A stretch of DNA of 64,000 nt, taken from positions 1-64,000 of the forward strand of contig JAAUOP010000008.1 in assembly GCA_012034805.1 (NCBI GenBank), read 5' to 3'. Positions within the stretch are counted from its first letter, which is position 1; each line of letters begins with the position of its first letter. Of the stretch, positions 4,555 to 61,013 are shown in pieces. Origin of the DNA: Synechococcales cyanobacterium CRU_2_2 (GTDB lineage Bacteria; Cyanobacteriota; Cyanobacteriia; PCC-9006; JAAUQQ01). Below the pieces are notes generated by a model. The model ran no database searches. It was not told the DNA's origin and saw nothing but the letters and a program-made list of their open reading frames with translations. Position numbers and translations under genes: made by a program.

Positions 4555-7281
4555 TCAACCGCTGACCCACTGACCAAATTTTTCCTCATCCCGAATCGCC
4601 GCCAAGTCCTCGTCCGTTTTCGCCATCTTGCGGTAGTCGGGATTGAGGGCGATCGCCTGCTCCAAATTCTCCAACGCCAACGCCGACATCCCCTGCAACG
4701 CATAACAACAGGCCTTGTCATACCAAGGCTCATGCTTATCCGGCTTGAGCTCTAGGGCTTGGTCAAAACTGGCGATCGCCTCCTCATAGCGCCCACTCTG
4801 GGCCAGTGCCAACCCCCGACTGTGCCAAGCATCATGGGACTCAGGATTGAGCTCTAGCGCCTTATCAAAACTGCGAATCGACGCCTCAAACTGCCCCAGA
4901 CAGCCCAGAGAGCTCCCGCGATTGTCCCAAGCCGCTGCGTTGTTGGGCTGGAATTCTAGGGCCTTGTTGTAGGCGGCGATCGCCGCTTCGTATTCGCCCA
5001 GGGAGGAGAAGCGATCGCCCAGTTTCCACAGGAATAAGTCTGCGGCAGATTCGGGTTCGCTGGCCAACACAGGGGTTAGGCGCTCTGCGATCGCCTGGGC
5101 CCGCTGCAGCAGCGCCAACGGTTCGTTCGCTGGATCCGGTTCGCCCGTGGCCCCAGACTGGAGCGCAGCACAGTGCTTCGACCCATAAAAAAGCGCCACA
5201 AACTGGGCAAAGCCGTCTAGGGACTCAACGGGCTTTAGGCAAGTCTGCACCGTCCGATCGACGTCGGGCTTGGACAGTCCTAAAGCCTCCTCCAGCAACC
5301 CATAGGGAATTTGACTGCGATCGAATATCAGTGACCCATGGGCGATCGCGGGCTCAAGCTGCTGCAAAAAGCTCCGCATCGATCCCTCGAGCAAGCCATG
5401 CTGCGCGAGCGGAAACTCGGCCATCAGCGCCGTCAAGGGCTCTTGGACAATGCCATCTTGCCGAAAGTAGCGCCCTTCAAGTAGATGTTTGCGCAACTGA
5501 TTCTGGGCGTCGGGATGACGACTCAGCAGCAGGTGATAGAGATATTCGGCTCGACCTCGCTGCCAAATCGGGTCTCGATACTGGTGGGCAGGGGATTGAT
5601 CGGGTCTGACTGCCTCGTTGGAACCCTCTAGAAAATAATCGGCGAGCTGCCCCTGGATCTTCAGGAAGAGCGCTTCATCCGTCTCCAGCAAGGACTGGCG
5701 CAAGGCATTGCGAGCGACATCATCGAGTCGCCAGCAGCCCTGAATTTGCTCAACAAAGTCCTGCTGAATCAACCAATCAAACCCGTTGGATTCCGCCTCG
5801 ACCGCCGCCGCAAAATTAGAGTCTTGAGCCAGGAGCAAATATTCAATTAAATCTTGGTTGAAGCTGCGGCAACAGGCGGCTAAACCCACGATATATCGTT
5901 GGGTAAGACTGAGATGCTGCTGCATCAAATCAGTAAGATTGGCGGGAATGCCAGCGGGAAGGGGGCTTCCGACTGCCGCTGGGGGCGCGATCGCGCCTCG
6001 GTCTCCCTCCGCCGGAGGCATCGCGGGTGAATGGGTCATATAGCGTAAGCCGTAGGGCAGCCCTGCCGTTGCCGCGAGCAACTCCTCGGCGTGGCTGGGG
6101 AGGCCGATGTTTTGGAAGTAGGCTGGGGCTTGATCAAAGGGCTCTAGCTCCTGTTCTTGCAAGAGAGATGACGGCTGGGATGACAGCTGAGGCGAAGCCT
6201 CACCGAGCAGCTGCTGCCAACCTGGGCGATCGCGCAAACGCTGGCGGCTCGACAACACCCATCGCACCCGAGAACCCTGAAGAACCTCCTGGGGCAGCAG
6301 CAGGTGCCAAAGCCAGGTGTCAACGGCCAGGGACGCCTTTTCGTAGGTGTCTAGGATCAAGACCACAGGCTGCCGCCTGGCGCGTTTTTGCAGGGCCTCA
6401 GCAAAGGCTGCCGTCAACACCCGGAGCGGTTGTAGGAGTAGCGTTTGTAGCGGTTGATCGTTCTGGGTGCTGGGGTGTTCCTGCAGCACTCGCAGCACCT
6501 GTTCTTGGGTGATGGCCTGGGCGGCTGCGGCTGCGGTGGACTGCTCCGGTGCCATGTCGAGGGCTGGCTTTAAGCTATAGCTCACGAGCGTTTGGTGGGC
6601 TTTGAGCTGTAGCTCACTGACCGTAGTCTTGCCCTCAATCGGTCGCTCGGCCAGCTCCTGGAGTGTTTTTTCGTAACGCTCATGCATCACCAAAAACTTG
6701 GGCTTGAAAATCCAATTATTTTGCTCAACCAAGGTTTGAAACAGCGTCACCATCAGCTCAATCGGCGTTTCAACCCGTTCAGTTTCGCCAAAGGAGACAA
6801 AGGCAAAGCTGCCCTTGACCCCAACGTTTCGGGTCCCAGGGCCTGGGTTTGCATAGCCCTTGCCCAAGCTGCTCTCGCCTGCATTGCCCTTTTCTAGGCG
6901 TTGGGCCAGGGTTCGTAGCAAGGTGGATTTGCCCACCCCTGCTGGCCCGTAGAGGTGAAAGGCGATCGCCGTATCTTTGCCCATTGCCCTGCCCGCTGAC
7001 CTATCCCTAGCATCCTCCGGGGCGAGGGATGCCTCGAAGCGGTTCAAAAACTGCTCAGCCGAGGCGCGTGGGCTCAGCTTGTGGGGGTGCTTCGGATTGG
7101 GTTCTGGATTGGGTTCTGTATTGGATTTTGTAAAAGCCACCGTTCTTGGAGTAGATCCAGATGAAATAGATTCAGACAAGATGGGTCGAGATGAAATAGA
7201 AGTAGGGGCAGCTGGGATAGGGGCAGCTGGGATAGGGCCAGGTGGAGTAGGTTCAGACGCTGAAAATGCAGAACTGTTCAT
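4555..7281 (-). CDS. P-loop (STAND/AAA-like) NTPase with C-terminal TPR repeats
   Basis: Walker A YGPAGVGKSTLLR, Walker B-like VVLILDTYE, C-terminal TPR units (AAWDNRGSSLGCLGQFEASIRSFDKALELNP...). Confidence 0.8.
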   Translation of the reverse strand: MNSSAFSASEPTPPGPIPAAPIPAAPTSISSRPILSESISSGSTPRTVAFTKSNTEPNPEPNPKHPHKLSPRASAEQFLNRFEASLAPEDARDRSAGRAMGKDTAIAFHLYGPAGVGKSTLLRTLAQRLEKGNAGESSLGKGYANPGPGTRNVGVKGSFAFVSFGETERVETPIELMVTLFQTLVEQNNWIFKPKFLVMHERYEKTLQELAERPIEGKTTVSELQLKAHQTLVSYSLKPALDMAPEQSTAAAAAQAITQEQVLRVLQEHPSTQNDQPLQTLLLQPLRVLTAAFAEALQKRARRQPVVLILDTYEKASLAVDTWLWHLLLPQEVLQGSRVRWVLSSRQRLRDRPGWQQLLGEASPQLSSQPSSLLQEQELEPFDQAPAYFQNIGLPSHAEELLAATAGLPYGLRYMTHSPAMPPAEGDRGAIAPPAAVGSPLPAGIPANLTDLMQQHLSLTQRYIVGLAACCRSFNQDLIEYLLLAQDSNFAAAVEAESNGFDWLIQQDFVEQIQGCWRLDDVARNALRQSLLETDEALFLKIQGQLADYFLEGSNEAVRPDQSPAHQYRDPIWQRGRAEYLYHLLLSRHPDAQNQLRKHLLEGRYFRQDGIVQEPLTALMAEFPLAQHGLLEGSMRSFLQQLEPAIAHGSLIFDRSQIPYGLLEEALGLSKPDVDRTVQTCLKPVESLDGFAQFVALFYGSKHCAALQSGATGEPDPANEPLALLQRAQAIAERLTPVLASEPESAADLFLWKLGDRFSSLGEYEAAIAAYNKALEFQPNNAAAWDNRGSSLGCLGQFEASIRSFDKALELNPESHDAWHSRGLALAQSGRYEEAIASFDQALELKPDKHEPWYDKACCYALQGMSALALENLEQAIALNPDYRKMAKTDEDLAAIRDEEKFGQWVSG

Positions 7282-8629: not shown

Positions 8630-9358
8630 TTAAGACTGAAAATGCTCTCCCAGATAGTACTGACGAACGAGCGGGTTGCCATAGAGCTCTTCTGGGCTCC
8701 CTGCCGCCAAAATCTCCCCATCGCGCAAAATGTAGGCGCGATCGGTAATGCTCAGGGTCTCTCGCACGTTGTGGTCTGTAATGAGAATACCAATCTGTTT
8801 GCGGCGCAGTTGTTCAATAATGCCCTGGATCTCGGCCACGGAGATCGGATCGATCCCTGCAAAAGGTTCGTCCAAAAGCAAAAACTTAGGGCCATCTCGG
8901 CCAGAGGCGAGGGCTCGGGCAATCTCGGTGCGTCGGCGCTCGCCGCCAGAAACCTGAATGCCGAGGGTGCGGGCAACTTTTTGCAAACGAAACTCGCCCA
9001 CCAGTTCGTGGAGCCGTTGTTCGCGCCGGTGGCTGGGCAGCTCGCTGTGCTGGAGCACCAGCCTGAGGTTGTCTTCCACGGTGAGGTGGCGGAAAATACT
9101 CGGTTCTTGGGCTAGGTAGCCAATCCCCAGACGGGCGCGGTGGGTCATGGAGAGCTGGGTCACATCGGTGTTGTCGAGCCAGACTCTGCCGCGATCGGGC
9201 TTTTCGATCCCTGTTGCCATGTAGAACGTCGTCGTTTTACCCGCACCATTGGGGCCGAGGAGGCCAATGATTTCGCCCTGGGCCACAGACAGATTCACCC
9301 GTCGAACGATGGGCTTTTTGCCGTAGCTTTTTTGGACGTTTTCTAACAGGATTTTCAC
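8630..9358 (-). CDS. lptB: LPS export ABC transporter ATP-binding protein LptB (GTG start assumed)
   Basis: GLLGPNGAGKTTTFYMATGIEKPDRGRVWLDNTDVT, SGGERRRTEIARAL, FLLLDEPFAGIDPISV, ITDHNVRETLSITDRAYIL. Confidence 0.93.
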   Translation of the reverse strand: MKILLENVQKSYGKKPIVRRVNLSVAQGEIIGLLGPNGAGKTTTFYMATGIEKPDRGRVWLDNTDVTQLSMTHRARLGIGYLAQEPSIFRHLTVEDNLRLVLQHSELPSHRREQRLHELVGEFRLQKVARTLGIQVSGGERRRTEIARALASGRDGPKFLLLDEPFAGIDPISVAEIQGIIEQLRRKQIGILITDHNVRETLSITDRAYILRDGEILAAGSPEELYGNPLVRQYYLGEHFQS

Positions 9359-17886: not shown

Positions 17887-18081
17887 GCCTCACGGTGCGG
17901 CTTAGCGGATAGATAGGGGGCTTTAACCCCTGTCGCTCGGTTCTGCACGTCCCCTCGTCGTGTTGTGGGGAGGACAGTAAAACTGCGTCAGTCACGATGC
18001 GTCAGCCCACGATGTGTCAGCGATTTAGCCCCCGTTATCCAGCTCCCGTCACCCAGCAACAGGCATACGGACTCGTCTACC

Positions 18082-20015
18082 ATGGCAACTTCTACCACAG
18101 CATCACCCCGTCTGGCTCCAGGGATGCGGCTGCGCCAACGCTATCTCATTCGTGAGGTACAGCAGCGCGATCGCTACGCCTGTACCTACCTTGCGCTTGA
18201 TCAAGAGCGATTCAATCGTCCCTGTGTCGTGACCGAATTTCCGTTGCAGTCGGCCAATCGTGTCGCACAAGAAAAATTACTGGAGCGGTTTCGCCAAGCC
18301 GCCTATCCGCTGTTTCAGCTGAACCATCCGCAATTGCCCCATTTCTTTGGGGCCTTTCGTCAGCGTCAAAGCCTGTTTCTCGCGCACAACCATGCCCAGG
18401 GGGTATCCTATCGAGAATTGCTGAATGTGCGGCAAAAGCAGGGTAAGGCTTTAACGGAGCCTGAGGTCGTTCACTTGCTGATGCATCTATTGCCCGTGTT
18501 GAGTGAGCTTCACCAGCTGGAGATTATCCACGGCAAGATTTCGCCAGACTGTATTCTGTTGCCGGTCAAACCGCCTCGATCTGTGGATGCGCTGTATAGG
18601 GTTCTTCAGCATGAAGCTCCGCATTTGGTCGGGCTGGGGGCTGTGGAATATTTGGGCCAAACCCTGGCGATGCTGCAAGACGGACGTAATGCAGGACATT
18701 GGTCCCCTGGGCAACCGGGTTATGCCTCACCTGAACAGTTGCAAACGGGTAAGCTTTCGCCCAGTAGTGATCTCTATGCCCTAGCGGTGACGACGTTGGT
18801 GCTATTGACGGGACGTCCCCGCAAGACTTGCTCGATAGCCACACCTTAACCTGGAGCTGGCAGGCCCATGTCACGCTGAGCCCATCCTTCGAAGTTGTCT
18901 TGCAGAAAATGTTGGCTTGGCAACCGGGCGATCGCTATCCCACCGCTCAAGCGGCCCTAGAAGAGGTGCGGGTTGCGTTCCACAAAATGAGCTTGCACAC
19001 GGTTTTTTCGCGCAGTCAGGATTCGACAAGTCAGGTTGCGGCTGGATTGCCGACGGCGCTGCAACGGCCCACGATCGATTCGCGATCGCCCAAGTCACCC
19101 AGCCGAGCGACGGGCTTTGCCAAGCTCCGCCAGAGTGCTTCTCGCCCCCGGCACAGAGTATCTGGATCCCGGTCATCCCAGGCCTTCCGCCATCACGCGT
19201 CAGTTGCTCACGCACTATCTCATTCCCCATCCGTTCATCACCCCCAGGATCCCCAAATGCCATTCCATCTCCATTCGTCTGATCCCCTCGGATCTAGCGG
19301 TCGCCCAGAAACAACCAGTCGTCTCGAAATGGCCGTTGTGATTGGACTGAGCCTGGGCGCGTTGGCGATCGCGACCGTATTGACCACCGCGAGCTTTGCC
19401 CCCGTGGATGCGCTTTCCTCGGGGCGAACCACTTGGCTCCAGCAAATTGTCGTGCCGAGGCAGTCAACACCTAACCCAGAGACTTCGAACGCTGCGTCAA
19501 AACGCTGGCAATTGCCTCGACTGGCTTGGCGACGGGGCGGATTCCAGGCCAGATCCTCAGCAGAAAAGCTCGATTTTGCCCAGCCGATGATTGTCACCCC
19601 AGCGAATCCGGTCAGGGAGGCCGATCGCCCCGTTGAGGATCAAATGGAGGATCAAGTTGATCGCAAGGCCGAACTCCAAGCACTCCAATCGGGCCTGGAA
19701 GACATCCCCGTGCCGATTTATTTCAGCCCCGGCCAACCCGCCCAAACGGTCTCAGGGACGCTCTACGAATTGCGGCATCAAAGCTATTTGGTCGTGGGCG
19801 AGGCAGGCCAAAAATTGATGGTACAACTGGATGCGGTGGATGCGGAACTGAGTATCCTCGATGCCTACAAGCGTCCGCTGGCGTTGGATGCGGAGCTGAC
19901 CCAACATTGGCAGGGGGAATTGCCGGGGGGCGATCGCTACTATATCCGCATCATCGGCAAGGGCGAATATCGGCTGCATGTGCAGCTCCAAGCCCCCGAG
20001 GATCTTGCGGAATAA
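18082..20015 (+). CDS. Serine/threonine-kinase-like protein, predicted pseudokinase, with C-terminal pre-peptidase-like domain (frameshifted)
   Basis: Kinase fold (VLSELHQLEIIHGKISPDCILL ... GQPGYASPEQLQTGKLSPSSDLYALAVTTLVLLTGRP); C4 run at 18817-18820 needs C5 to continue PPQDLLDSHTLTW. Confidence 0.78.
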
Positions 20016-20063
20016 TCTCTACGATGAGACGCCCTAAACAACGCTCAGGAAGTTCTTGAAAGG

Positions 20064-21302
20064 TTAGTCAGTGAAATGCTGATCGGCGATTCCCCTTGGT
20101 CGGTATTTCGATCGCATGAGACTTGCCGTTTTTCGGTCATATCGAAATTGATCGATAGTGCCTTCCTTGATTTTCTCGATCGCCGCTTCAATCGCTTCCA
20201 GTGGCACAAGGAACCACTCTTGCGGCTTCACAGGTGCGCCGAAGCGATCGATCAGTTCCAAATCCAATCTGGCGCTGCCAAAAAACTTCTGAAGTATTGC
20301 TTCAAGTCCCCTCTGATTGATATTTGCAAGCTTGAACGTGGCAATGATTTCGACTTCTGCCAGCAAGTAGGTCGGGTCTTTCTTGGCCTTGGAAATCCGA
20401 CTTTTAATATCGCCGCTCGTCACACCGATCTTGTGAATAACAGACCGATGCTTCGCAATAAAGGGATGTTCTGATTTACTTCTGAGCACGTAGATATAGC
20501 CGCTGGGTAAGTCGTCCGCTGCTTCAGTACCCAAAAAAAGTGGGCCGAAATCTGGGGTGGTAATGCGGCGGCTTGCCTTGTCTTTATTTAAGGCCCGTTG
20601 GAGCGATCGCATCAACAGGTCGCTTTCGGTAGCATTGTCATACACCACCCTGAGTCTGCAATCTTGGCGGCCATGGTCACCGATAAACAGCTCGCCCATT
20701 TCAGCAACCAGAACCTTGTGCCCATCCAGAATGAACATATCACCTGGATTAACTGCTGCATTGTCTTGATATTTCAGCGTTTTCCGTAAGCCTGTCTCTA
20801 GATCGTTTTGAACGCTTGCAAACAGGGGTTTGAATTGCTTGAAGTCCTCACAGGGATCGCGTTGTGCAATCTCTTCAGCAGCCTTGATTTCGCTGCGCGA
20901 TCGCACATACTGAAGCTGAGTGATATCGTCTTCTGAGGCGGCTTCGAGGTCGAGGGAAGCCAGGAGGTCTTCATCTGTCAGGTCTTCCTCTAGAGCAAAG
21001 CTGGTCTCACTTTCAGCATCTAGCAGTCCCCGCAAATCTAGCGACCGTAGGACTTCGCGGCATTCTTCAGACTCCCGCAGGCGCTCCAGCCTTAAAGCAT
21101 AGATCCGCTCGAAGATATCGAGATTTTCCCCATGCTGGGGCAATCTACCCTGTTCTTCTACAAAGCGTTCGATTTCTTCAAAGCCTGCGATGATGCGCTC
21201 TTCTTTAGCAGAAAGCACTTTAGACTTGACGGGTGCTGTGTCTAGACCCAAGTCACCGAGTAAAGCCAGATCTGCATCCGTCGTTTGCTTTTGTTTAGGC
21301 AT
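20064..21302 (-). CDS. GIY-YIG nuclease family protein (T5orf172/Mug113-like C-terminal domain)
   Basis: GYIYVLRSKSEHPFIAKHRSVIHKIGVTSGDIKSRISKAKKDPTYLLAEVEIIATF...; overlaps upstream helicase by 8 nt. Confidence 0.82.
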   Translation of the reverse strand: MPKQKQTTDADLALLGDLGLDTAPVKSKVLSAKEERIIAGFEEIERFVEEQGRLPQHGENLDIFERIYALRLERLRESEECREVLRSLDLRGLLDAESETSFALEEDLTDEDLLASLDLEAASEDDITQLQYVRSRSEIKAAEEIAQRDPCEDFKQFKPLFASVQNDLETGLRKTLKYQDNAAVNPGDMFILDGHKVLVAEMGELFIGDHGRQDCRLRVVYDNATESDLLMRSLQRALNKDKASRRITTPDFGPLFLGTEAADDLPSGYIYVLRSKSEHPFIAKHRSVIHKIGVTSGDIKSRISKAKKDPTYLLAEVEIIATFKLANINQRGLEAILQKFFGSARLDLELIDRFGAPVKPQEWFLVPLEAIEAAIEKIKEGTIDQFRYDRKTASLMRSKYRPRGIADQHFTD

Positions 21303-23382
21303 TACTGTCTTCCTTCACCTTTCGTTGTAAGAACGCAATGCCTTCGGCCATGCGTTTTTCCCAGGGGTCGGCTGCGGTGATTGAAGGCAGCCGACCTTTC
21401 TCATTTTTGAATCGTATGGCTCTTTTGGCGAGTTCTCGGGCTTCTTCCAGGGTGAGGGTTATTCGCTTGGCTGCAATCACGGCTGCGACCTGCTTGAGCC
21501 GTTCTTCGCTCATGGACTTAGAGAGGATGGCATAGGCTTCGCCAAAGGGATTGATGTGATCGATCAGGTCAATATCGAGTTCTGTGACCGAGAGGGCGAA
21601 CTGTCGCACCCCGTCGATCAGGGCGGTGTTTGGAGCGGCTTCCTCTCCCGCATCTCTGGTCTGATAGCTTCCCCCTAGTTCAGCTGCTTTCTTTGCCTGT
21701 TGGACGACGTTGAGGGCGGCGATCGCATGTTGCCTCACGGCTTCTTTATCGTCCTGCTCTAAATCCGGGAATTTCTCTTTGACGATTTTGCCCATTCGGA
21801 CTTGGGTCAGTTCCTCGGGGACTAATTCTTCATCGAATAGACCGCGTTCGATCGTCGGTTTGTCCTGCACAAAAGCGGTCACGAGGTCGGTCAGGTCTTC
21901 GCGGCAAATCCGGGCGGCTTCAGGGGTTTTCGGTTCGGGTAGTCCTTTGATTTCCAGTTGTATTTGCCCTGTCTCGGGATTGACGCCGACGTTACATTGA
22001 CCGGGTTGATAGCCGCCTTCACCGTAGTCAAAACCTGGTGTGGGTTGATTATCGGCGCGTTTGGGCTTGAACTCGAAGCGCGGGGCGAGGACTTGCTCCA
22101 TTAAGAGGCTGGCCGCGATCGCCTTCAGCGTATCATTCACCGCTTCGGTCACGGCGGCTTCACTGGCATCGGGTTCGGCGATGAGGTTGGTGAAGCGGGC
22201 GCGGGTTTTGCCAGGTGCATCACGGGTGGCGCGGCCAATAATTTGGATGATCTCAGTCAGACTGGAACGGTAGCCAATGGTGAGGGCATGTTCGCACCAG
22301 ATCCAGTCAAAGCCTTCCTTGGCCATGCCGAGGGCAATGATAATGTCAACGTGATCGCGGTTGTACTTCTGGCTGGGGTCTTTGAGGGCATTGGCCACTT
22401 TATCGCGCTTGCTCGGATCGTCATCTACCAGGTCGGCAATTTTGAGGACTCGGCCATCGGTGGTTTGGACTCGTTGAAACCCTGTCTCTGGATCAATGCC
22501 TTGCCATTCGCCCAGTTCGTCGATGATATGTTCGACTTCGCGGATTTTGTCCTTAGTGCTTTCGCGGGAGTTGACGTTGGGGATGTGCAGGATGGTTTTC
22601 TCGTTGGGGTTGAGCACCTGCATGATTTCATCGGTGTAGCTGCCGGAGTAGAAGTAGTAGCCGAGGTCGAGTTGCTTCAGGTACTGATAGCCGTTGAGTT
22701 GTTCGTAGTAGGTGTAGGTGACGGTATCAAAGCGGGATTCGTCGTCGGGATGGAGGACGGCTTCGGCATCGCCGCGAAAGTAGGAGCCGGTCATGGCGAC
22801 GATGTGGGTTTTGTCACGGGTCATCAGTTGGCGGATGTGGTCGCCCAGCTTGTTATCGGGGTTGGCGGACACATGGTGGAATTCGTCGATCGCGAGCAAG
22901 CGATCGTCAAAAACGTCAATGCCAAACTGATCTACAGCAAAGCGGAAGGTGGCATGGGTGCAGACTAAGACTTTGGCATTACTGTCTAGGAAGGTTTTGA
23001 CAGCATTGACTTTGCCGCTATTTTCACTGCCACCGTCGCCGCCGGGGGCATCGCAGAGATTCCATTTGGGTTCGACGTGCCAGTCGGTCCAGAAGCCATA
23101 TTGGCTCAGGGGTTCGTTATGGAAGCTGGAGCCGATCGATTTTTCGGGGACGACGATAATGGCTTGTTTGAGTCCCTGATTCTCTAGCTTATCGAGGGCG
23201 ATGAACATCAGGGCGCGACTTTTGCCGGAGGCGGGGGGCGATTTGATCAGCAGGTATTGTTCGCCGCGCTTTTGGTAGGCAAGCTCTTGCATGGGGCGCA
23301 TCCCCAGGGCGTTGGGCTGTGTGGAGGTGCCTGCTTGGGCATAGGTGACGGAGACGGCGGGGATGGCGGTTGGAGGACGCAT
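21295..23382 (-). CDS. DEAD/DEAH (type III restriction-like, SF2) helicase
   Basis: Motif I LIKSPPASGKSRA, motif II AIDEFHHV, motif III AMTGSY, motif VI QIIGRATR. Confidence 0.92.
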   Translation of the reverse strand: MRPPTAIPAVSVTYAQAGTSTQPNALGMRPMQELAYQKRGEQYLLIKSPPASGKSRALMFIALDKLENQGLKQAIIVVPEKSIGSSFHNEPLSQYGFWTDWHVEPKWNLCDAPGGDGGSENSGKVNAVKTFLDSNAKVLVCTHATFRFAVDQFGIDVFDDRLLAIDEFHHVSANPDNKLGDHIRQLMTRDKTHIVAMTGSYFRGDAEAVLHPDDESRFDTVTYTYYEQLNGYQYLKQLDLGYYFYSGSYTDEIMQVLNPNEKTILHIPNVNSRESTKDKIREVEHIIDELGEWQGIDPETGFQRVQTTDGRVLKIADLVDDDPSKRDKVANALKDPSQKYNRDHVDIIIALGMAKEGFDWIWCEHALTIGYRSSLTEIIQIIGRATRDAPGKTRARFTNLIAEPDASEAAVTEAVNDTLKAIAASLLMEQVLAPRFEFKPKRADNQPTPGFDYGEGGYQPGQCNVGVNPETGQIQLEIKGLPEPKTPEAARICREDLTDLVTAFVQDKPTIERGLFDEELVPEELTQVRMGKIVKEKFPDLEQDDKEAVRQHAIAALNVVQQAKKAAELGGSYQTRDAGEEAAPNTALIDGVRQFALSVTELDIDLIDHINPFGEAYAILSKSMSEERLKQVAAVIAAKRITLTLEEARELAKRAIRFKNEKGRLPSITAADPWEKRMAEGIAFLQRKVKEDSNA

Positions 23383-23453
23383 AGATTGAAAGCTATTTGG
23401 CTGAATACGTATGTAATGGCGATCTAGATCGATTTATAGTGGATGTCGCGAGG

Positions 23454-23792
23454 CTATCCTTCAGGGGGGACTACTTTTTTTAATTCTAAAATCAAGGTGG
23501 GTAAGCTGTTGACTGCGGTATCCCACACCACGTCTAGATCAATCTCATCATATTCATGGACAAGCCGATTTCTCATCCCGCTAATTGCAATCCAGGGAAT
23601 AGCCGTTAGGGTTTGTCGAGTTATTTTAGAGACTCGTTTTGAAGCTTCGCCGATGACTAAAAGCCGATGGATTACAGCGTCTTGAAGTTGCAGGTTCGTC
23701 GCTAATTCGTTTTGCGATCGCCCCTGAAGATAATCAGCCACGATTTGGGCAGATTGCAACATATCAAGCAGAGATTGAAGATCGCGTTCCAT
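23454..23792 (-). CDS. hepT: HepT-like HEPN ribonuclease toxin (DUF86)
   Basis: HEPN motif GMRNRLVHEYDEIDLDVVW (RxxxxH); overlaps mntA. Confidence 0.9.
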   Translation of the reverse strand: MERDLQSLLDMLQSAQIVADYLQGRSQNELATNLQLQDAVIHRLLVIGEASKRVSKITRQTLTAIPWIAISGMRNRLVHEYDEIDLDVVWDTAVNSLPTLILELKKVVPPEG

Positions 23793-24093
23793 AAATCACC
23801 TGAGTAGAGGAGAGAATTGCTTCTCGCCGCAAGTAGTTACGGCTCGTTTCAATGCCTTTGCGCGTCACTAAGTCGACATCTCGCTGAAACAGTATTTTTA
23901 ATTCGTCTTCCATGTAGGTTAAATCAAAAAAGGTGGGGTGAGCATCTGGGTGAAATTGCACCATGACATCAATGTCGCTGTCGGGACGGAAGTCGTCGCG
24001 CAGAACTGATCCAAAGAGAGCGAGTTCTGTGATCTGCCATTTTTGACAAAATTCAGCAATTTGATTCATGGGAAGCTCGATCGCAGTTTTCAT
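23764..24093 (-). CDS. mntA: MntA-type minimal nucleotidyltransferase antitoxin
   Basis: ALFGSVLRDDFRPDSDIDVMVQF (GSx10DxD nucleotidyltransferase motif) directly upstream of hepT. Confidence 0.9.
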   Translation of the reverse strand: MKTAIELPMNQIAEFCQKWQITELALFGSVLRDDFRPDSDIDVMVQFHPDAHPTFFDLTYMEDELKILFQRDVDLVTRKGIETSRNYLRREAILSSTQVIYGTRSSISA

Positions 24094-24320
24094 GGTTTAC
24101 CTCTTTTAGGTTTACGTTGGGCGGGCTGCTTGGGCGGGGAACTGGTCATTTTTGCGTATAGCTCAAAGAGTTTTTCGAGGCGTTCGGTGTCGCCCTTGAC
24201 ACACTTGAGGTGAAGCGGCGATCGATGTAGATGCGATCGAGGATTTCGTCGTTGCGATCGCGTAGCGTTGCCTTTGAGCAAATCGTGAGCTTCTCGCACT
24301 AACGGAAATTCTCGGTGTCT
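24090..24320 (-). pseudogene. Truncated C-terminal remnant of a second MmeI-like methyltransferase
   Basis: EFPLVREAHD...RNDEILDRIYIDRRF (shifted) ...DTERLEKLFELYAKMTSSPPKQPAQRKPKRGKP matches the intact copy's EFPLVREAHDRNDEILERIYIGRRFKNDTDRLEKLFDLYTKMTSQAAPPKKSAKGKTKGSKP. Stop TGA overlaps mntA ATG (ATGA). Confidence 0.85.
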
Positions 24321-24430
24321 CCAAGTACGGCAAAGCTAGCAACTGATGTAGATGTACTGTGATGAGTTAGATAGTGCGCGTTTTCTGAGAGGCGTCAAAC
24401 GATCTAGCCATCGGCTTTTAACCGATTTCC

Positions 24431-24487
24431 CGCGCGTTTAAACGCGCGCGCGCGTTTCTTGAAACAAGTCGCGCGTTTAAACGCGCG
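24431..24487. repeat. Two copies of perfect 18-bp palindrome CGCGCGTTTAAACGCGCG (24431-24448 and 24470-24487)
   Basis: Direct reading; the second begins next to the corrected stop codon of the AlbA-domain gene. Confidence 0.95.
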
Positions 24488-24488
24488 A

Positions 24489-26136
24489 TTATAGGATCGT
24501 ATAATAAGTTCCCTTAGATTGTCCATGGGAAATAAGCTGTTCCGCTGCAAGCATATGTTGTAATAAACGTCCGGCCTGATCTCGGCTGAGTCGGCATAAA
24601 TCCATAACGTCCTTGCGCTTGATTCGACCATGTTTCTGAATGTACTGGACGACCATTTGTTCTTGCTGTATTCGATCGAAGCCAACTTGGCGAATATAGT
24701 CAGCACTTTGTCCTAACTGGCGATAGATACTGGCACTGAGGGTGTAGGTGCGGCCTTTTTTTGATCCCTTGTGGTTCGACTAATCCCGTTTCGACTAATC
24801 GTTCCAAAATAGAACGAGCCACAGATTCATTTTTCTGGATGACCTGAGCCACTGTCGCAATATCAATGCGACGTTCGGTACGTAGGTGTGACAGTGCAAT
24901 CAGCGCATCTAGGGAAATCGAGCGGCCAGTTCGGTTTTCTTCTTCGACAATCATTTTGAAGAAGGGGATGTCGGCTTGGGTGGAACTGATGATCACTTGA
25001 ACAGTCGTGGCGTTGCTGCTGGAGTAGTCGGGGCCAGGGCGACCATAGCGGAGTACACCTTGAAAAATGAGGTCTACTCCGCGTCCGGTACGTTCGGCGA
25101 TACCAATTCGCTTGACCGCATCGGCTAGGGTGGGATTTCGTGGTTTTGGTTCGACGACGAGGAGGTTTTCGAGGGTGACGCCTTCTACAAAACCGCCGGG
25201 ATTACTGACAGAAAGGGTGTCGTTTTGCAGGCGCACAAATACAGTGCCTAACTGGGCATAGTCGCGGTGAACCAACGCATTAACAAGAGCTTCCCGAAAG
25301 GCGCGCTGATCGTAAGTAGGAATAGGCACTCGAAAAAGGCCCCACTGTAGTTCTTCTTCTTCGACCCGGACCTCAAACTGCTCCATCAGACGTTCAAAGG
25401 TACGGAGTAAGGGGGTGTGATAGAAGTCGTTGGTACGAACTTGGGTATTGTCGAGGACTTGGAAAGCAACTTCATGAGTGGGAATGTGGGTACGGATGGC
25501 GCTTTCTTTACCGATCATCAGTAATCCGGTTAAGGTCGGGGTTTTGATACCGTTGATCGTGCTGACAAGTCCGAGTGCGCCATCGAGTTCATCATCTTCT
25601 AGGTTTAAGAGTGAGGGATCACCCTTGTATGACTCGATCATGCGTCGTAGGCGTTCGCGCTCGATCGGGTCAAGGTCAGTCGAGGTGGCTGCGGAGATGG
25701 GGATGGCGGAGTAGTCGAGGAGGCCAAGGTCGGATTGGCGGCTGGGAAATTCGTGGGGGTAGAAGGGAACGCACTGGGGCGTGCCATCGGCTTGGAGACG
25801 GCGGCGCTGAAGGAGTCCGTCGGAAGTGGCGACTAGGCGAGAGGATTTGGGGACTTCGATCGTGGCGATGTTGTGCCCTTGTTCGTGGATAACGGTGGCG
25901 CGGAAACTTATGGGAGGGTTAGTACGGTTGGCGATGAAGGCGGAAAGCTGAGCGGTGCTTTGGTGTTTGGGATGGAGTCCTGTGATCGTGCCATCATCTT
26001 CGACGCCAAGGTAAAGGGTGCCGCCGTCTGTGTTGGTCAGACAAACTATGGCCGCAACGAGGTCAGCATCGGGGAGGCAATCGCGATCGCTTTTAAATTC
26101 TACGGTGAGCGATTCTTGTTGAGGGATGGTTCGCAT
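24489..26136 (-). CDS. Schlafen AlbA_2 domain / HATPase_c_4 ATP-binding protein with C-terminal winged helix (frameshifted near C-terminus)
   Basis: ESLTVEFKSDRDCLPDADLVAAIVCLTNTDGGTLYLGVEDDGTITGL and REALVNALVHRDYAQLGTVFVRLQNDTLSVSNPGGF. Removing one A from the A7 run (plus T7 24756-24762) continues IKKGRTYTLSASIYRQLGQSADYIRQVGFDRIQQEQMVVQYIQKHGRIKRKDVMDLCRLSRDQAGRLLQHMLAAEQLISHGQSKGTYYTIL*. Confidence 0.88.
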
Positions 26137-26193
26137 GGTGAGGTGGTTGGGACTGGAGGTGAGATTGATTTTTGGATATTGGTAGCAGCTTCG

Positions 26194-28997
26194 CTATGGC
26201 TTCGATCCTTTTGTTTTGCCTTTGGCAGATTTCTTGGGTGGGGCGGCTTGGCTGGTCATCTTGGTGTAGAGGTCGAAGAGTTTTTCGAGGCGATCGGTGT
26301 CGTTTTTGAAGCGGCGGCCAATGTAGATGCGCTCTAGAATTTCGTCGTTGCGATCGTGGGCTTCCCTGACTAGCGGAAACTCGCTGTCCATGCGATCGGG
26401 GGCGTACATATCGGCGATCGTGGCGGGGAAATAATGCTCTCTTGCTAACAAAATATCTTCGGCACAGCCGGTGAGGTCGGCTTTGTTGCGATCGGTGAGG
26501 GTGGGGACGGGGAAGGTGTTCCAGCCGAGGGTGTTGGAGTAGCGAAAGTCGGTTTTGAGCTTGCCGCAGACGGTGGCGATCCAGACGAGGTGGAGGCGGG
26601 AGGCGATCAGGGCCATGTTCCAGAGCGGGGCATCGTAGAGGGCAAAGGCGAGGTTAGTTACTGTGGATTGGGCATCAAGTAACCCGACTGGAAGATAATT
26701 TCGACTTTCAGATGAAACGCAGGGCATGGAGATAGTTTGCACCCTGCCAATATTCATTTCGCGCATTTGGTGGGAACGTGTCGCCATATCATTCGCGCTT
26801 TTATCACGACTGGCTAGCCGCATTTTCCGTACCCCTTCAATTCGCTGTCGGATTGGGTCGATGGCTAATGTTTCATCCAAATCTTCATCATCAATCCACA
26901 GGCAATAGCGAGATAGTCCTCGAATAAATTCGGCTGAACCATAAATCCGTCGAATGAACCTGTCACGCTGCTCTTTAGTAAGTTCAAGAGCATTTACCTC
27001 ATCAGTAGACAGAAGTAAGTTTCCACCGTCAACAGGTTTGTTACCAAAGCTCATTTCAACAAGAGCACCTAACGGTTTCGTCGCTTTTTCAACAATGACA
27101 TTAGACCCAGTAACTAAATAGGCATTAATATTTTCAGCTTCCTTTGCAACTGTCTCACCATTATCATCAATCGAAAATAACTGTCGAACTTTACCAGCTT
27201 GATTAGAAATTCCAACGATCGCCACCGTCACCCCAGCGTTATGACTCGCTAGATTCGCCCATTTGAAGCTGGTGTGTGCAAAGGCGATTTCATGCCCACT
27301 GTCAAAAATCAACGGCCAAAGAATTGGCACCTGTTGCCCCTGGCAAATCGAATTCGTCGAGACAAACGCCGCCGCTGATGTCGTTTGCGTTCCATAATCC
27401 GCCGCCTTCATAAACCAACCCGCCACATAATCCAGCGACTTCCAGGTTTTCGTTCGGCTGCCAAAGATCAGCTTGAGATCATCCTTTTGCTCTGTCGATT
27501 GCCAAGTCGATCCCAAATACGGCGGATTCCCGCAAATATAAGTCTCTCCTCCCTCATTCACAAAATCAATCTCCGTCTGATCCAGCGGCGTACTAAACAA
27601 ATCCTCCGCCACCAGCTTTACGCCCGTTCCCGTCGGTGGACACAAACTCAACCAATCCAACCGCAGCGCATTCCCACAGGTAATCCAGTTATCCCGCTCC
27701 AACGGCAAAAACAACAGCCGCGCCTCCTGCTGCCCCAGATACCGCACATCACACTGAAACTTCGCAATCACCAACGCCAACCGCGCAATCTCCGCCGAAA
27801 AATGCCGCAATTCAATCCCCCGAAAATTCGTCAGCGGCACCACCGTGCGCAAATTGCTCTCCCCCCGCCGCCGATTAATCTCCGCCTCGATCGCCCGCAG
27901 CTCTCGATAAGCAATCACCAAAAATTCCCCGACCCACAAGCCGGATCGAACACCCGAATCCGCGCCAACCGATTTCGCAAATTCAACAGCTTCCGCGCAT
28001 TGTCTCCCGCCGCCTCTAACTGACCGCGCAACTCATCCAAAAACAGCGGATTCAACACCTTGAGGATATTAGGCACACTCGTATAGTGCATCCCCAGCGC
28101 TCCCCGCTCCTCCTCATCCGCCACCGCCTGAATCATCGAGCCGAAAATATCGGGGTTAATCTGCTTCCAATCGAGATTGCCGACGTGGAGCAGGTACGAT
28201 CGGGCAATCTTACTAAAACGCGGCACCGCCACACTGCCATCCGCACTCGCCGAAAACAACCCCCCATTCACATAGGGAAACCCATCCGCCCAATTCTTCA
28301 CCCCCACCCGTTCCTCAGGCCGCGTACACATCGATCGAAACAACTCCGCCAACACCTCATGGGTGTTCGAGCCATCGCTCATCTGCTGCACCGTCGCCGT
28401 AAACAACCCCTCCCCCTGAAAAATATTTGTATCCTCCGCAAAAAAGCAGAAAATCAACCGCGCCATAAAATGATTCAGATCCTCCCGCCGATCGGCCCCA
28501 TCCCAACCCGGATTATCCTTCAATAGCTCCACATACAGCCGATTCAACCGCCCCGTCGCCTTAATATCAAACGCATTCTCCCGAATCTGCTTAACCGTCG
28601 TAATCCCCGCCAGCGCCAAGAAAAACCCAAAATGGTCATGGAAATCCGGGTACTTGCAGGCGATCGCCTCCCCATCCACCAAATTCTCCGCCTCCAACCA
28701 CTCCCCATCCGTCGCCAGAATAAACTTCGCCTTCTGTTTCGTCGTCGCCCCACTCTCGCGCAACGCCGTCAGCGTGGCAGTCACCTCCCCTTCCGCGCAA
28801 ACCTTCAAATGGATATTGTTACGCTGGAGCAAACCACCCAGGTCAGACTTATTAGAGCTGTTGCGCTGGCTCTTGAGCTTCTTGATCGTCGTCAGTTTAT
28901 TGCCAAAAGCTTCGAGGAAGTCAAAGGGAAAAGCCTCCGAGTCAAAGGGCGCGCCCGCGAGCCGAGAGACGGCTTCTTCGATTTCGACTGCATTCAT
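26194..28997 (-). CDS. MmeI-like class I SAM-dependent DNA methyltransferase (frameshifted)
   Basis: VFDPACGSGNF(L)VIAYREL motif I and CGNPPYLGS catalytic motif IV with long C-terminal TRD-like region. A5 run at 27920-27924 needs A6 to fuse the two ORFs. Confidence 0.9.
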
Positions 28998-29246
28998 TTC
29001 TGCACCATCAGTAGCTTAGAGGCTTGACTATTGCTTCTTGGGGCAATTTGCAAATCTTACCCTGATTTTTCGATTGTGGAGGTTGCGATGGTCTCCGACC
29101 GGGCTTTGCCCATCGCAGCGCTTTGGGATATGGGTGGCACAATAGAGAGCAGCGGCCTACCCACAAGATGGGCTTGCCCTGCGTCATCCTTGTCCCGAAT
29201 GTTTGCCCCGAATGTTTGCCCCGGATGTTCGTCCCGGATTTTGCCC

Positions 29247-30871
29247 ATGCTCCGTCTGTCTGAAGTGAAATTGCCGCTGAACCACCCAGAGGAGGCGATC
29301 GCCACCGCCATCTACAGAAAACTACGCATTGAGCCCAAAGACCTAACCCGGTACAGCATCTTTAAGCGCAGCTACGACGCCCGCAAACGCGAGAATATCC
29401 AGCTGGTCTACATTCTAGATGTAGAGACATCTCAGGAAAAACAGCTCCTCCAACGCTTCAAGAAAAACCCTCAGATTCGGCCCACCCCCGACACCACCTA
29501 TCGACTCGTGACGCGGGCACCAGCGGGACTGTCGGAGCGACCGATCGTGATTGGCAATGGCCCCTGCGGCATGTTTGCAGGATTGTTGTTGGCACAAATG
29601 GGATTTCGCCCCATTATTTTGGAGCGAGGCAAGGCGGTGCATGAGCGATCGGTCGATACCTTTGGCTTTTGGAGCAAGGGCAAATTTAACCCCGAGTCTA
29701 ACGCCCAGTTTGGCGAAGGCGGCGCTGGAACGTTTTCCGATGGCAAGCTCTATAGCCGCATCAAAGACAACGACCATCGCGGCCGCAAGGCGCTGCAAGA
29801 GTTGGTCAATGCCGGGGCCGCTGACGAAATTCTCTACATCAATAAGCCACATATTGGCACCTATCGACTGGTCAAAATTGTTGAGCAAATTCGCAATACG
29901 ATCCAGTCTCTCGGGGGTGAAATCCGCTTTCAGAGCCGAGTGGAAGACCTTGACATCCAAGACGGGCAAGTGGAAGGGATCAGGCTCGTCGATGGAGAAT
30001 ACCTGGCCAGCCGCCATGTGATTTTGGCGGTGGGCCACAGCGCTCGGGATACGTTTGAAATGCTTCACCAACGCGGCGTTTATCTGGAACCCAAGCCCTT
30101 TTCGATTGGTTTTCGCGTTGAGCATCCCCAGGCGACCATTGACCAATGCCGTTTTGGCGAAAATGCGGGGCATCCGGTGCTCGGCGCAGCGGACTACAAG
30201 TTGGTGTACCATTGCACAGGTGCACAGACCCAGGGGCGATCGGTCTACAGTTTTGTATGTGTCCAGGGGGACAGGTGGTTGCTGCTGCATCTGAAGCCGG
30301 ACGTGTCGTCACCAACGGCATGAGCCAGTACGAGCGTAGCGGCAAAAATGCCAACAGCGGCATCGTCGTCGATATTTCGCCCGAGGACTATCCGCCAGGG
30401 CCTCTCGGTGGCATTGAGTTGCAACGCCAATGGGAGTCGAAAGCCTTTGAGCTGGGGGGCGGTACCTACGAGGCTCCGGGACAACTGGTCGGTGATTTTC
30501 TGGCGGGGCGACCTTCGACGGCGTTCGGTGGTGTGAAACCGACCTATCGCCCTGGGATCAAGTTGGGTGATTTGTCGGATTGCTTGCCGGATTATGCGAT
30601 CGCCGCCATCCGCGAAGCCATTCCCGAGTTCGAACAGCAACTCCCCGGCTTTGCCAGGGCTGATGCGATTCTCACTGGCGTCGAAACCCGCACCTCGTCG
30701 CCGATTCGCATCAAGCGCGGTGCAGACTCCCAAAGCTTAAACACGAAAGGATTGTACCCAGCGGGCGAGGGGGCGGGCTATGCCGGTGGCATTCTGTCAG
30801 CGGCGGTGGATGGCATTCGAGTGGCGGAGGCACTGGCACTGAGCTTGGTGGGCCGGGCTGAGGGGGGCTGA
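29247..30871 (+). CDS. FAD-dependent oxidoreductase/dehydrogenase (COG2509-like; frameshifted)
   Basis: IVIGNGPCGMFAGLLLAQMGFRPIILERGK, GEGGAGTFSDGKLYSRI, PAGEGAGYAGGILSAAVDGIRVAEAL. T4 run at 30251-30254 needs T5 to join (SVYSFCMCPGGQVVAAASE). Confidence 0.92.
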
Positions 30872-31356: not shown

Positions 31357-33246
31357 TCAAATATCCAATACGATCGCCCCCTTCGGATAGGCAATACAAG
31401 TCAGAACATAGCCCTGAGCCTGCTCCTCGGCGGTCAGTGCACTTGGATCATCCTCGTAGGTCACCTCGCCCTGGAGCAAGCGGTGCTTGCAAGTGCCGCA
31501 GCTCCCAGCTTGACAACTGCTTTCAATGGGAATTCCGGCGGACTGGGCGATCGCCAACACCGTTTGGCGGCTGTCACTTTGCACCGTTTTCTCAAACCGC
31601 ACCACCACGGGCTCGCCTGCGGGCGCGACCTCGGCTGGAGCCGCGATCGGAGCCGCGATCGCCTCGTCCTCAAACACCACACCGGGCTTTGGCGTCGCGC
31701 CAAACTGCTCCATCAACAGTTGCCGAAGCAGCGGTTTCAGGTCTTCGCAGGGCACCCCCTTGATTGCCTTCTCGCCCAGCTTGGCATCCTGGCCCACCTG
31801 GCCCCCCAGGAAAATATCCACCGCTTCCACGGTCTTGCCATTCTTGCGGGCCTTGGTGCCCATAAACCCAATTTCTGCCACCTGGGGCTGGCCGCAGGAA
31901 TTGGGACAGCCCGTCCAATGCATCCGCACCGATTGGGGCAAGTCTAGCTCGGCTTCGACTTCGCGGGCGAGGGCGATCGCCCGCTGTTTGGTTTCGATAA
32001 TCGCAAAATTGCAAAACTTCGCTCCGGTGCAAGAGACCACCGAGCGCAGTAGTGGCCCTGGTTCCACCGGAAACGCTTGCAGCAGGGGCTCCTGCACCAG
32101 CCCCTCCAGCCGAGAGTCGGGCACCCCGACCAAAATGATATTTTGCTCAACGGTCAGCCGAATCTCCCCATTGCCATAGACCTCTGCCAAGCGTGCGCAC
32201 TCAAACATCTGCTCTGCTCCCAGCCGACCGGCGGGAACCAGCAAGCCCACGTAGTTTAGGCCCGGTTGCTTTTGTTTGTGGATGCCAATGTGGTCGCGCT
32301 TGTCCCAGTCCATCTCATCTTCCGGGGCTGCGGGGAGGAGCGATCGACCCAATTTTTCCTCCAGAGCCGCCCGGAATTTGTCCAAGCCCCACTCTTCAAT
32401 CAGCCACCAGAGCCGAGACTGCTGGCGCTTGGCACGGGGGCCATGGTCACGAAAGAGTTCGAGAATCGCGCGGCAGAGCTCTACCACCTCCCCATTGGCT
32501 GGAACCCAGGCATCGAGCGGTAGGGCCGGTTCACAGCGGCTGGCAGAAAAGAAACCGCCCACGACGACATTGAAGCCAAACTCGCCGTCCTTCTGGCCAT
32601 TTCTAAAGGCCGGGACAAAGGCAATGTCATTAATTTCAGCGTGAATAGAATTATCTCGCCCGCCTTCGATCGCAATATTGAGCTTGCGGGGCAAATTGCT
32701 AAACTCCGGATTGCCCTCACCGCTGTTGGTGATCATGTCTTGGACTTGCTGCACCAGGGCACGGGCATCGAATAACTCATCGGCATCGAGCCCCGCCACG
32801 GGAGATGTGGTGATGTTGCGGACATTATCCATGCCCGACTGGATCGAGGTGAGACCCACCTCGCCCAACCGCCTGAAAATATCCGGGACATCCTCAATCA
32901 AAATGCCCCGGAGCTGAAGATTCTGGCGCGTGGTGATGTCGGCGCTGCCGTCCTCGCCGTAGCGCTGAACAATGCCTGCTAAGACGCGCATTTGCTGGGC
33001 CGACAGCTCACCGCTGGGCAGCCGCAGCCGCAGCATAAACTTACCGGGAGTTTGCGGGCGAAAAAAGACCCCCAACCACTTCAGGCGACTGCGATCGTCT
33101 GCATCAATTGCCTCCCAGCCCGCTTGGGCAAAGTGCTCCAGCTCATGTTTCACTTCCAGACCATCTTTGTCTACCTTGTATTGCTCAAATTTATTGAGCT
33201 TGACTGGCTTGTCCGCAATCTCTGGCACGTTTGCAATTCCTTGCAT
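31357..33246 (-). CDS. nirA: Ferredoxin-nitrite reductase fused to C-terminal [2Fe-2S] ferredoxin domain
   Basis: Siroheme/4Fe-4S motifs CTGAKFCNFAIIETKQRA and TGCPNSCGQ; C-terminal SSCQAGSCGTCKHRLLQGEVTYEDDPSALTAEEQAQGYVLTCIAYP. Confidence 0.94.
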   Translation of the reverse strand: MQGIANVPEIADKPVKLNKFEQYKVDKDGLEVKHELEHFAQAGWEAIDADDRSRLKWLGVFFRPQTPGKFMLRLRLPSGELSAQQMRVLAGIVQRYGEDGSADITTRQNLQLRGILIEDVPDIFRRLGEVGLTSIQSGMDNVRNITTSPVAGLDADELFDARALVQQVQDMITNSGEGNPEFSNLPRKLNIAIEGGRDNSIHAEINDIAFVPAFRNGQKDGEFGFNVVVGGFFSASRCEPALPLDAWVPANGEVVELCRAILELFRDHGPRAKRQQSRLWWLIEEWGLDKFRAALEEKLGRSLLPAAPEDEMDWDKRDHIGIHKQKQPGLNYVGLLVPAGRLGAEQMFECARLAEVYGNGEIRLTVEQNIILVGVPDSRLEGLVQEPLLQAFPVEPGPLLRSVVSCTGAKFCNFAIIETKQRAIALAREVEAELDLPQSVRMHWTGCPNSCGQPQVAEIGFMGTKARKNGKTVEAVDIFLGGQVGQDAKLGEKAIKGVPCEDLKPLLRQLLMEQFGATPKPGVVFEDEAIAAPIAAPAEVAPAGEPVVVRFEKTVQSDSRQTVLAIAQSAGIPIESSCQAGSCGTCKHRLLQGEVTYEDDPSALTAEEQAQGYVLTCIAYPKGAIVLDI

Positions 33247-33513: not shown

Positions 33514-34744
33514 CATGCCCATTCTTCTGAGCTGCGATCGCCCTCCAAAGCCTTGTCAATGGTGATTTCGAGCTGCGCTGGGATGCCGCGAAGCAACTGG
33601 TGCGACTGGGGCCTGCGACCCTGTCACCCCTGCTAGAGCTGCTCCAGGAGGTTGCGGGGGATCCGGAAGATGATTTGCATTGGTTTATTGCCCGCATCCT
33701 CGGGGAGCTGCGGCATCCGCTGGCGGTGGCGGCTCTGGGCCAGTTGATTCAGACCACAAATCAGGCGGAGGTGGCCGCGATCGCAGCCACCTCCCTAGCC
33801 AAATCCGGCGAGCTGGCCCTGCCTGTCCTCAGCCAGTTATTGCACCAGCCCGAGCAGCGGGTGTTGGCGGCTCAGGCCCTGACCAGCTGGGTTTGGTCGT
33901 GGCAGTGCCGCTGTTGATATCGGTAGTTGATGATGACGATCCCCAGGTACGAGCCGTGGCGGTAGAAGGCTTAACGGCCTTTCGAGACCCGCAAATTACG
34001 CCCGTGCTGGCGGCGGCCTTGGGGGATCCGTCGGCAACGGTGCGGCTTGCGGCCTTGCGGGGCCTGGGCAGCCGAGGGCAACAGTTGCCCCAGATTGCGG
34101 CGCTGACCTCGGAGATTGCCCGTCTGCTAGAGGATTTGAATCTAGAGGTGGGGCTACAGGCGGCGATCGCCCTCGGTCGGCTCCAAGCGCTTGGGCCGTT
34201 GGATCGGCTGCTGGATCGGCCCCTGATTCCGTTGGCGCTCAAAATCCAAGTGCTCCGCTCCCTGGCCTGGTGTGAAACCCCGGCAGCCCTGGAAATTTTG
34301 CAGCGGCGGCTGCAGGCGAGCCTCCAGGGCGGCCCCGAGGATCCAGACTGCCATGGCATCAGCTTGGCCTTGATTCAGATCTTGGGGCGCATTGAGCGGT
34401 CTGATTTGCAGGGCACCGCCACTGATAGCTTGTTGGCCGCATTGAGCCTGGGGCAACACCGCTGCTGGAGCCCTGACCAAGCTGCGGCCTGTGCCCTGAG
34501 CCTAGGACAACTGGCTCATTCCCAGGCCTTCGAGCCTCTGGTGCAGCTGTTGGCGAGACCCCTGGCTCCGGTGAGATTCCAGGTGATCGCAGCGCTCAAG
34601 CGGATCGATCCAGACCATGGACGCCAGCGGCTAGAGGCGATGCGGCTGGAGGCGATCGCCACACCCACTGCCCCAGACACGCCCCCCCTGACCGAGGGCA
34701 CTGCCGACGGTATTGCTTTTGCCCTCACCGAATGGCCCGCGTGA
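33514..34744 (+). CDS. HEAT-repeat protein (frameshifted; 5' end uncertain)
   Basis: LQSLVNGDFELRWDAAKQLVRLGPATLSPLLELLQ... and DPQVRAVAVEGLTAFRDPQITPVLAAALGDPSATVRLAALRGLG; frames shift near 33880 and probably near the N-terminus. Confidence 0.8.
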
Positions 34745-60920: not shown

Positions 60921-60984
60921 AGTGCTTCTAAATGGCAGTGCTTCTAAATGGCAGTGCTTCTAAATGGCAGTGCTTCTAAATGGC
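60921..60984 (+). repeat. 16-bp perfect tandem repeat x4 (agtgcttctaaatggc)
   Basis: Direct reading. Confidence 0.97.
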
Positions 60985-61013
60985 AGTGCCCCCATCACAA
61001 CCCCACAGTCCCC

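Follow-up and report, generated by a model that had tools for sequence, protein, structure and literature searches.

Does the block of genes at 20064-28997, on the minus strand of a 64,000-nucleotide (nt) stretch of contig JAAUOP010000008.1 from Synechococcales cyanobacterium CRU_2_2 (this whole stretch is the window), form one new defence system, or a known core that has taken up other genes? The open reading frame (ORF) list and Pfam confirm a co-directional block in the window, transcribed in the order MmeI-like DNA methyltransferase (MTase), AlbA/HATPase protein, MntA, HepT, superfamily 2 (SF2) helicase and T5orf172/GIY-YIG nuclease, and the profile search proposed in a preliminary description of this DNA gave Pfam families for all six proteins. 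That description had matched the set to no named type, which does not hold for the core: the MTase, helicase and GIY-YIG genes are not new, matching the published DnmA(YeeA)-YeeB-YeeC cluster in family, order and direction. The constant part of the locus is these three genes, and AlbA and MntA-HepT are exchangeable cargo. We propose that the locus is probably a horizontally acquired, DnmA-YeeB-YeeC-type and Type I-like restriction-modification (R-M) operon, with an exchangeable cargo slot and with the MTase tail serving as a homology block (coordinates in Table 1).

To define the constant part, we surveyed the loci of the best 80 of at least 550 helicase relatives confirmed in a genome scan, drawn from many phyla. 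The trio was seen in all 80, within the limits set by contig ends: the GIY-YIG gene lies 3' of the helicase in 78, the MTase lies 5' of it in nearly all loci with enough upstream contig, and helicase and nuclease genes are more than 300 bp apart in just 1 of 78. The neighbourhood survey thus bore out the recurrence of these genes in the same order. Hundreds of genomes contain a helicase relative in the same gene setting, which disposes of the possibility raised earlier that the genes are chance neighbours. Helicase motifs are unchanged in 9 cyanobacterial homologs, and the GIY-YIG residues Y271, KIG 291-293, R302 and E334 are kept in at least 90% of 75 homologs; no solved structure was matched by sequence for either protein.

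The MTase carries the Pfam domains MmeI_N, MmeI_hel, MmeI_Mtase, MmeI_TRD and MmeI_C, and its N-terminal half matches the MmeI structure PDB 5hr4 by sequence (E 5.6e-41). Motif I (DPACGSGNF) and NPPY, which had been pointed out before, are both present, and the PD-(D/E)XK signature that could not be recognised in the N-terminal region is equally elusive in its relatives, with the corresponding spacing missing from 57 of 58 homologous N-domains. MmeI, a Type IIL enzyme, has the helical spacer, MTase, target recognition domain (TRD) and C domains in common with the window protein, but no N-terminal nuclease motif was found in the latter, so that cutting would need separate proteins. Judged by this motif spacing, endonuclease and MTase are not combined in one polypeptide as in Type IIL systems, and the PADLOC label REase_MTase_IIG reflects overall similarity only.

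In these respects the locus resembles that of Bacillus subtilis, where DnmA has been likened to MmeI (Nye et al. 2020, PMC7261158). Morgan et al., as cited there, count DnmA among homologs that lack an endonuclease motif and have yeeB- and yeeC-like genes as neighbours. Type I-like R-M was suggested earlier for DnmA-YeeB-YeeC (PMC7261158), and a 2023 mBio paper describes conserved synteny of the cluster (PMC9973331). Both loci comprise an MmeI-like MTase without nuclease motif followed in the same direction by an SF2 helicase and a T5orf172/GIY-YIG gene, and both lie in a low-GC (guanine plus cytosine) acquired island (PMC7261158, PMC9973331). Whereas yeeB lies directly downstream of dnmA in B. 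subtilis, AlbA, MntA-HepT and a copy of the MTase tail separate MTase and helicase in the window, so the helicase is not the next gene because cargo lies between. The B. subtilis rings match MmeI_N in a control search, and the likeness to YeeB and YeeC is one of family and order, not of alignment. B. subtilis YeeB and YeeC are without C-terminal stretches that Vibrio has (PMC9973331). No other name for the trio was found in the literature within reach, which largely excluded subscription journals.

Among other named systems, signature genes of BREX, DISARM, Druantia and Zorya, already reported as absent, were indeed missing from the Pfam and PADLOC matches, as were those of PbeABCD; there were weak PbeA helicase and shared DrmMI MTase-domain matches only. 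Pfam, PADLOC and NCBIfam matches contained no Hsd family (HsdM, HsdS, HsdR), and the cluster may work like Type I R-M but is no member of it. The set corresponds to a named system in its core genes, while the cargo slot and the tail copies are not part of that match.

The island is horizontally acquired. In the same-genus genome G001 the flanking genes lie ~550 bp apart and the island is absent, and island GC is below that of the flanks. Plasmid records with helicase relatives number 261, of which 117 are conjugative, and a trio also lies on the 22.8 kb plasmid NZ_CP143529.1 of Synechococcus elongatus PCC 11801; the search for phage carriage gave two partial matches only.

Between MTase and helicase, the gap exceeds 300 bp in 45 of the 73 loci with both genes readable and is tight in the other 28. 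On a 73-row helicase tree, the slot switches between occupied and empty at least 19 times, and there are at least 27 changes of cargo type. Cargo begins by overlapping the MTase stop in an ATGA pattern in ~26 of 41 loci, and 57 cargo ORFs run with the operon as against 7 that do not, and those on the minus strand may be spurious. Cargo, called by Pfam on representatives and by reading for the remaining genes, includes RhuM, YhcG/DUF1016 nuclease, AlbA, MntA-HepT, DarTG, Fic, RelE, a GNAT protein, Uma2 and others; PADLOC labels RhuM, YhcG, DarT and MntA as defence proteins or candidates for defence, and much of the cyanobacterial cargo is toxin-antitoxin. Two recurrent slot families, of ~277 amino acids (aa; six members, as at L047:9171-10004) and ~264 aa (five members, as at L074:9201-9995), had no match in Pfam or PADLOC.

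Seen against this background, the AlbA protein and the HEPN-MNT pair, earlier described as an accessory and an embedded toxin-antitoxin, are both cargo in a recurrent slot. AlbA also occupies the equivalent slot of loci L049 and L059 (53% identity to the window protein), and its solved-structure sequence match is 3lmm. The MntA and HepT translations contain GSVLRDDFRPDSDID (GSx10DxD) and RNRLVHEY (Rx4HxY), and the pair shares with type VII MntA-HepT these motifs, overlapping genes and the antitoxin-first order. It differs in sitting inside an R-M operon and in falling below the NCBIfam equivalog cut-offs (44.3 and 42.2 bits versus 60). A second, diverged MntA-HepT pair (47% and 32% identity) is found in the same genome at L027:4704-5310 (G000:C157).

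Cargo of this kind is familiar from type I R-M loci, where DarTG2 sits between hsdS and hsdR (PMC12255303) and HEPN, PrrC, RhuM and Doc have been described (PMC3710099). Such loci (PrrC/EcoPrrI, the RRDM island with DarTG2, RloC/RhuM/Doc) likewise combine a modification gene, a motor and nuclease function with embedded toxin or defence genes (PMC12255303, PMC3710099, PMC12707154), and RhuM, DarTG, HEPN and Fic are cargo families common to both. Unlike them, the present cluster has no hsdS or HsdR homolog, its specificity lies inside the MTase and its GIY-YIG nuclease is a gene of its own; moreover, its slot follows the MTase, with tail copies.

The 3' part of the MTase differs in behaviour from the rest of the gene. 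In mosaic alignments of close sister loci, the MTase is homologous to ~nt 1480, just past NPPY, after which the specificity region is not alignable; the last ~300 nt are homologous again, the slot is not alignable where cargo differs, and homology resumes from the helicase start. Mean pairwise identity among 57 MTases is 0.77 in the catalytic part, 0.45 in the specificity region and 0.82 in the tail. The mosaics and the identity profile therefore mark the tail as a conserved block between two swapped modules. All 12 extra MTase matches detected by tblastn fall in aa 825-937 of 937. The degenerate tail copies measure ~70-270 nt, start at varying points on the left (for nearly all, model positions 121-256) and in cyanobacteria lie between successive cargo in the window, L018 and L131 (three each in these two), and L022, L195, L197, L199 and L200 (at least one each). 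The reading frame of the window copy ends in an ATGA that overlaps the mntA start, and the AlbA-hairpin-tail unit recurs in L131 with 82% DNA identity, there after DarTG.

We read the copies as pointing to recombination at the tail, which would have inserted cargo with the tail attached. Import and local duplication are both possible sources, because for some copies the closest tail is that of the genome they lie in, while the window copy is equidistant. Two other accounts were set aside: that copies are always imported from other genomes is not supported, given that several have their closest counterpart in the tail of the same genome, and a specificity-switching shufflon was rejected, the copies beginning at about the TRD end or farther on (from aa 825).

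The verrucomicrobial locus L039, which has two, is the sole place outside cyanobacteria where tail copies were seen, though many loci have open slots. At L039:2396-2821 a helicase 5' remnant (aa 7-84) is fused in-frame to an MTase-tail fragment upstream of the full helicase; this is a fossil of a recombination event. Locus L194 (G251:C20 13000-31000; locus positions reversed 4906-5174, 9058-9157) holds three ~100-bp repeats that are 96-100% identical. They are related to the MTase end, two lie upstream of the MTase, and the simple picture of cargo insertion does not account for them. The mosaics and the tail copies between cargo seem undescribed, while prior accounts of the slot are possible in the subscription literature.

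From the anatomy of the locus we propose the following mechanism. The MmeI-like MTase would recognise an asymmetric site and methylate it. Where foreign DNA lacks this methylation, the MTase would act together with the SF2 helicase, which would serve as motor, and cutting would fall to the GIY-YIG protein, encoded separately. The slot between MTase and helicase is exchangeable and would usually be translationally coupled to the MTase stop. AlbA-HATPase and MntA-HepT most likely serve for addiction or as a second, abortive line of defence, like PrrC and DarTG in type I loci. Recombination, presumably homologous, at the conserved tail would swap the specificity region or the cargo and leave tail copies between stacked cargo. 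The division of labour suggested earlier, with recognition by the MTase, translocation by the helicase and cleavage by the GIY-YIG protein, agrees with this anatomy and with the published Type I-like suggestion (PMC7261158), but the fixed six-gene set in which it had been framed is not supported.

More tentatively, the MTase tail could anchor recombination in a mobile R-M platform whose specificity and cargo modules exchange independently. In cyanobacteria this would yield integron-like arrays without an integrase, in which toxin-antitoxin or defence genes each follow a tail copy that possibly keeps translational coupling. The likeness to integron cassette arrays is an analogy only: both have serial co-directional cargo units separated by repeats, but the repeat here is the MTase 3' end, and no integrase or attC was seen.

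Several points weigh against a Type I-like operon with a recombining tail. The tail may be conserved because it touches the helicase and not because it serves recombination, and variable specificity regions are usual for MTases. The surveyed loci are best matches rather than a random sample, and both MTase and AlbA are frameshifted in this assembly. In addition, deletion of dnmA, yeeB or yeeC in B. subtilis produced no phage or transformation phenotype (PMC9973331, PMC7261158).

These B. subtilis experiments favour the main rival reading, in which the core is a non-functional R-M relic where the MTase alone matters, as an orphan epigenetic methylase such as B. subtilis DnmA was concluded to be, and the island persists through addiction to its toxin-antitoxin cargo. 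The abundance of such cargo in cyanobacteria, the frameshifts in the window and the decayed locus L200, with its truncated helicase, speak for it as well. We nevertheless consider a relic unlikely, since it would not keep the helicase motifs, the GIY-YIG catalytic residues and the order of the trio across phyla, all of which are retained. Mutants of V. crassostreae in dnmA and yeeB are more sensitive to phage, as cited in PMC9973331, and the published anti-phage results conflict, with no effect in B. subtilis and some in Vibrio.

The frameshifts, moreover, look like sequence errors. The MTase is split into 27915-28997 and 26194-27939 by one base missing from a T run just 3' of motif I (~27917), and the AlbA gene is frameshifted at an A7 run near 24760, its C-terminus carrying on in another frame down to ~24490-24492. 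In relatives, the MTase is unbroken in G005 (L016; 919 aa) and L131 has a full-length AlbA homolog of 548 aa. Because FAD-dependent, kinase and HEAT-repeat genes outside the island also look split, and because both island frameshifts lie in homopolymers, sequence error is likelier than true breaks, and we did not adopt the MTase as a firm pseudogene. The source assembly consists of 332 contigs.

A more doubtful alternative is site-specific integration, with the MTase 3' end as attachment site at which an integrase encoded elsewhere inserts cargo plus a tail copy, as in integrons. It would explain why the repeat is a gene 3' end, why cargo-tail units such as AlbA-hairpin-tail are common to different contexts (the window and L131) and why cargo in the cyanobacterial arrays is co-directional. 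We regard it as improbable: no integrase was recognised among the cargo, the copies vary in length and left end and have no fixed core, and beyond cyanobacteria they are confined to L039 despite the many open slots. The co-directional, closely packed arrangement in the window speaks for the six genes being one fixed new defence system with obligate AlbA and HEPN-MNT, but this reading is hardly credible: the slot is empty in L016, the helicase relative closest to the window, there are slots with AlbA but no MntA-HepT and slots with the reverse, and many loci hold different cargo or none.

The preferred reading, a Type I-like operon with exchangeable cargo, bears on why a trio so widespread and highly conserved has given disagreeing bench tests: if restriction depends on, or is backed by, variable cargo, this could help explain the lack of a phage phenotype in B. 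subtilis as opposed to Vibrio. Slot and tail block together suggest, in a concrete form that can be tested, how R-M operons come to take up toxin-antitoxin and defence genes. They also suggest a search rule for new cargo, from the MTase stop to the helicase start, of which the two unmatched families are examples. Further study is most deserved by the slot, the translational coupling and the tail copies.

Table 1. Features of the acquired island and its genes in the window.
Feature	Position	Strand	Basis
Acquired island, approximate extent	19988..29244	.	Absent from G001; lower GC
DnmA/MmeI-like DNA MTase, no nuclease motif, two frames	26194..28997	-	Pfam; intact homolog in L016
MTase specificity region, aa ~496-815, swapped among close sister loci	26563..27522	-	Mosaic alignments, identity profile
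MTase tail, aa ~816-937, conserved block between specificity region and slot, source of copies	26194..26562	-	Mosaic alignments, identity profile, copies
Cargo 1: Schlafen/AlbA_2 + HATPase_c_4 protein, winged-helix C-terminus	24490..26136	-	Pfam; annotated ORF 24700-26136
Non-gene ORF (shifted frame of AlbA C-terminus + hairpin)	24404..24706	-	No Pfam; overlaps AlbA C-terminus
GC-rich palindrome, terminator- or repeat-like, just 3' of AlbA	24431..24488	.	Self-match on opposite strand
Degenerate copy of MTase 3' end, between AlbA and mntA	24093..24311	-	tblastn; nhmmer E 1.4e-34; sequence
Cargo 2a: MntA-type nucleotidyltransferase antitoxin, GSx10DxD	23764..24093	-	Pfam NTP_transf_2, PADLOC PDC-S09
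Cargo 2b: HepT-type HEPN RNase toxin, Rx4HxY	23454..23792	-	Pfam HepT-like
YeeB-like SF2 helicase	21295..23382	-	Pfam DEAD/ResIII; motifs invariant in 9 homologs; 80 loci
YeeC-like T5orf172/GIY-YIG nuclease	20064..21302	-	Pfam T5orf172, MUG113; conservation in 75 homologs

Seven head-to-tail minus-strand features had been counted in this block. Its co-directional layout stands, as do the overlaps of helicase and GIY-YIG gene (8 nt, 21295-21302) and of mntA and hepT (29 nt), but the MTase is not one frame and the ORF at 24404-24706 was rejected as a gene.

Frame-split genes beyond the island lie at 29031-30871, 17965-20015 and 33600-34744; that for the FAD-dependent protein is clear, split over two frames (FAD-depend_C 1-50, then 48-197), and those for a kinase and a HEAT-repeat protein are probable. 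Elsewhere in the window, 31357-33246 encodes a sulfite/nitrite reductase with a C-terminal 2Fe-2S ferredoxin domain in a single polypeptide, and a 16-bp tandem repeat of 4.3 perfect copies (60921-60989) runs across the start of a small ORF. At the contig end, several minus-strand frames at 61560-63997 read like one broken CHAT/NTPase/TPR-type protein, a family call made by eye; GC skew is strong here (-0.457), and this is possibly another defence-type or signalling gene.

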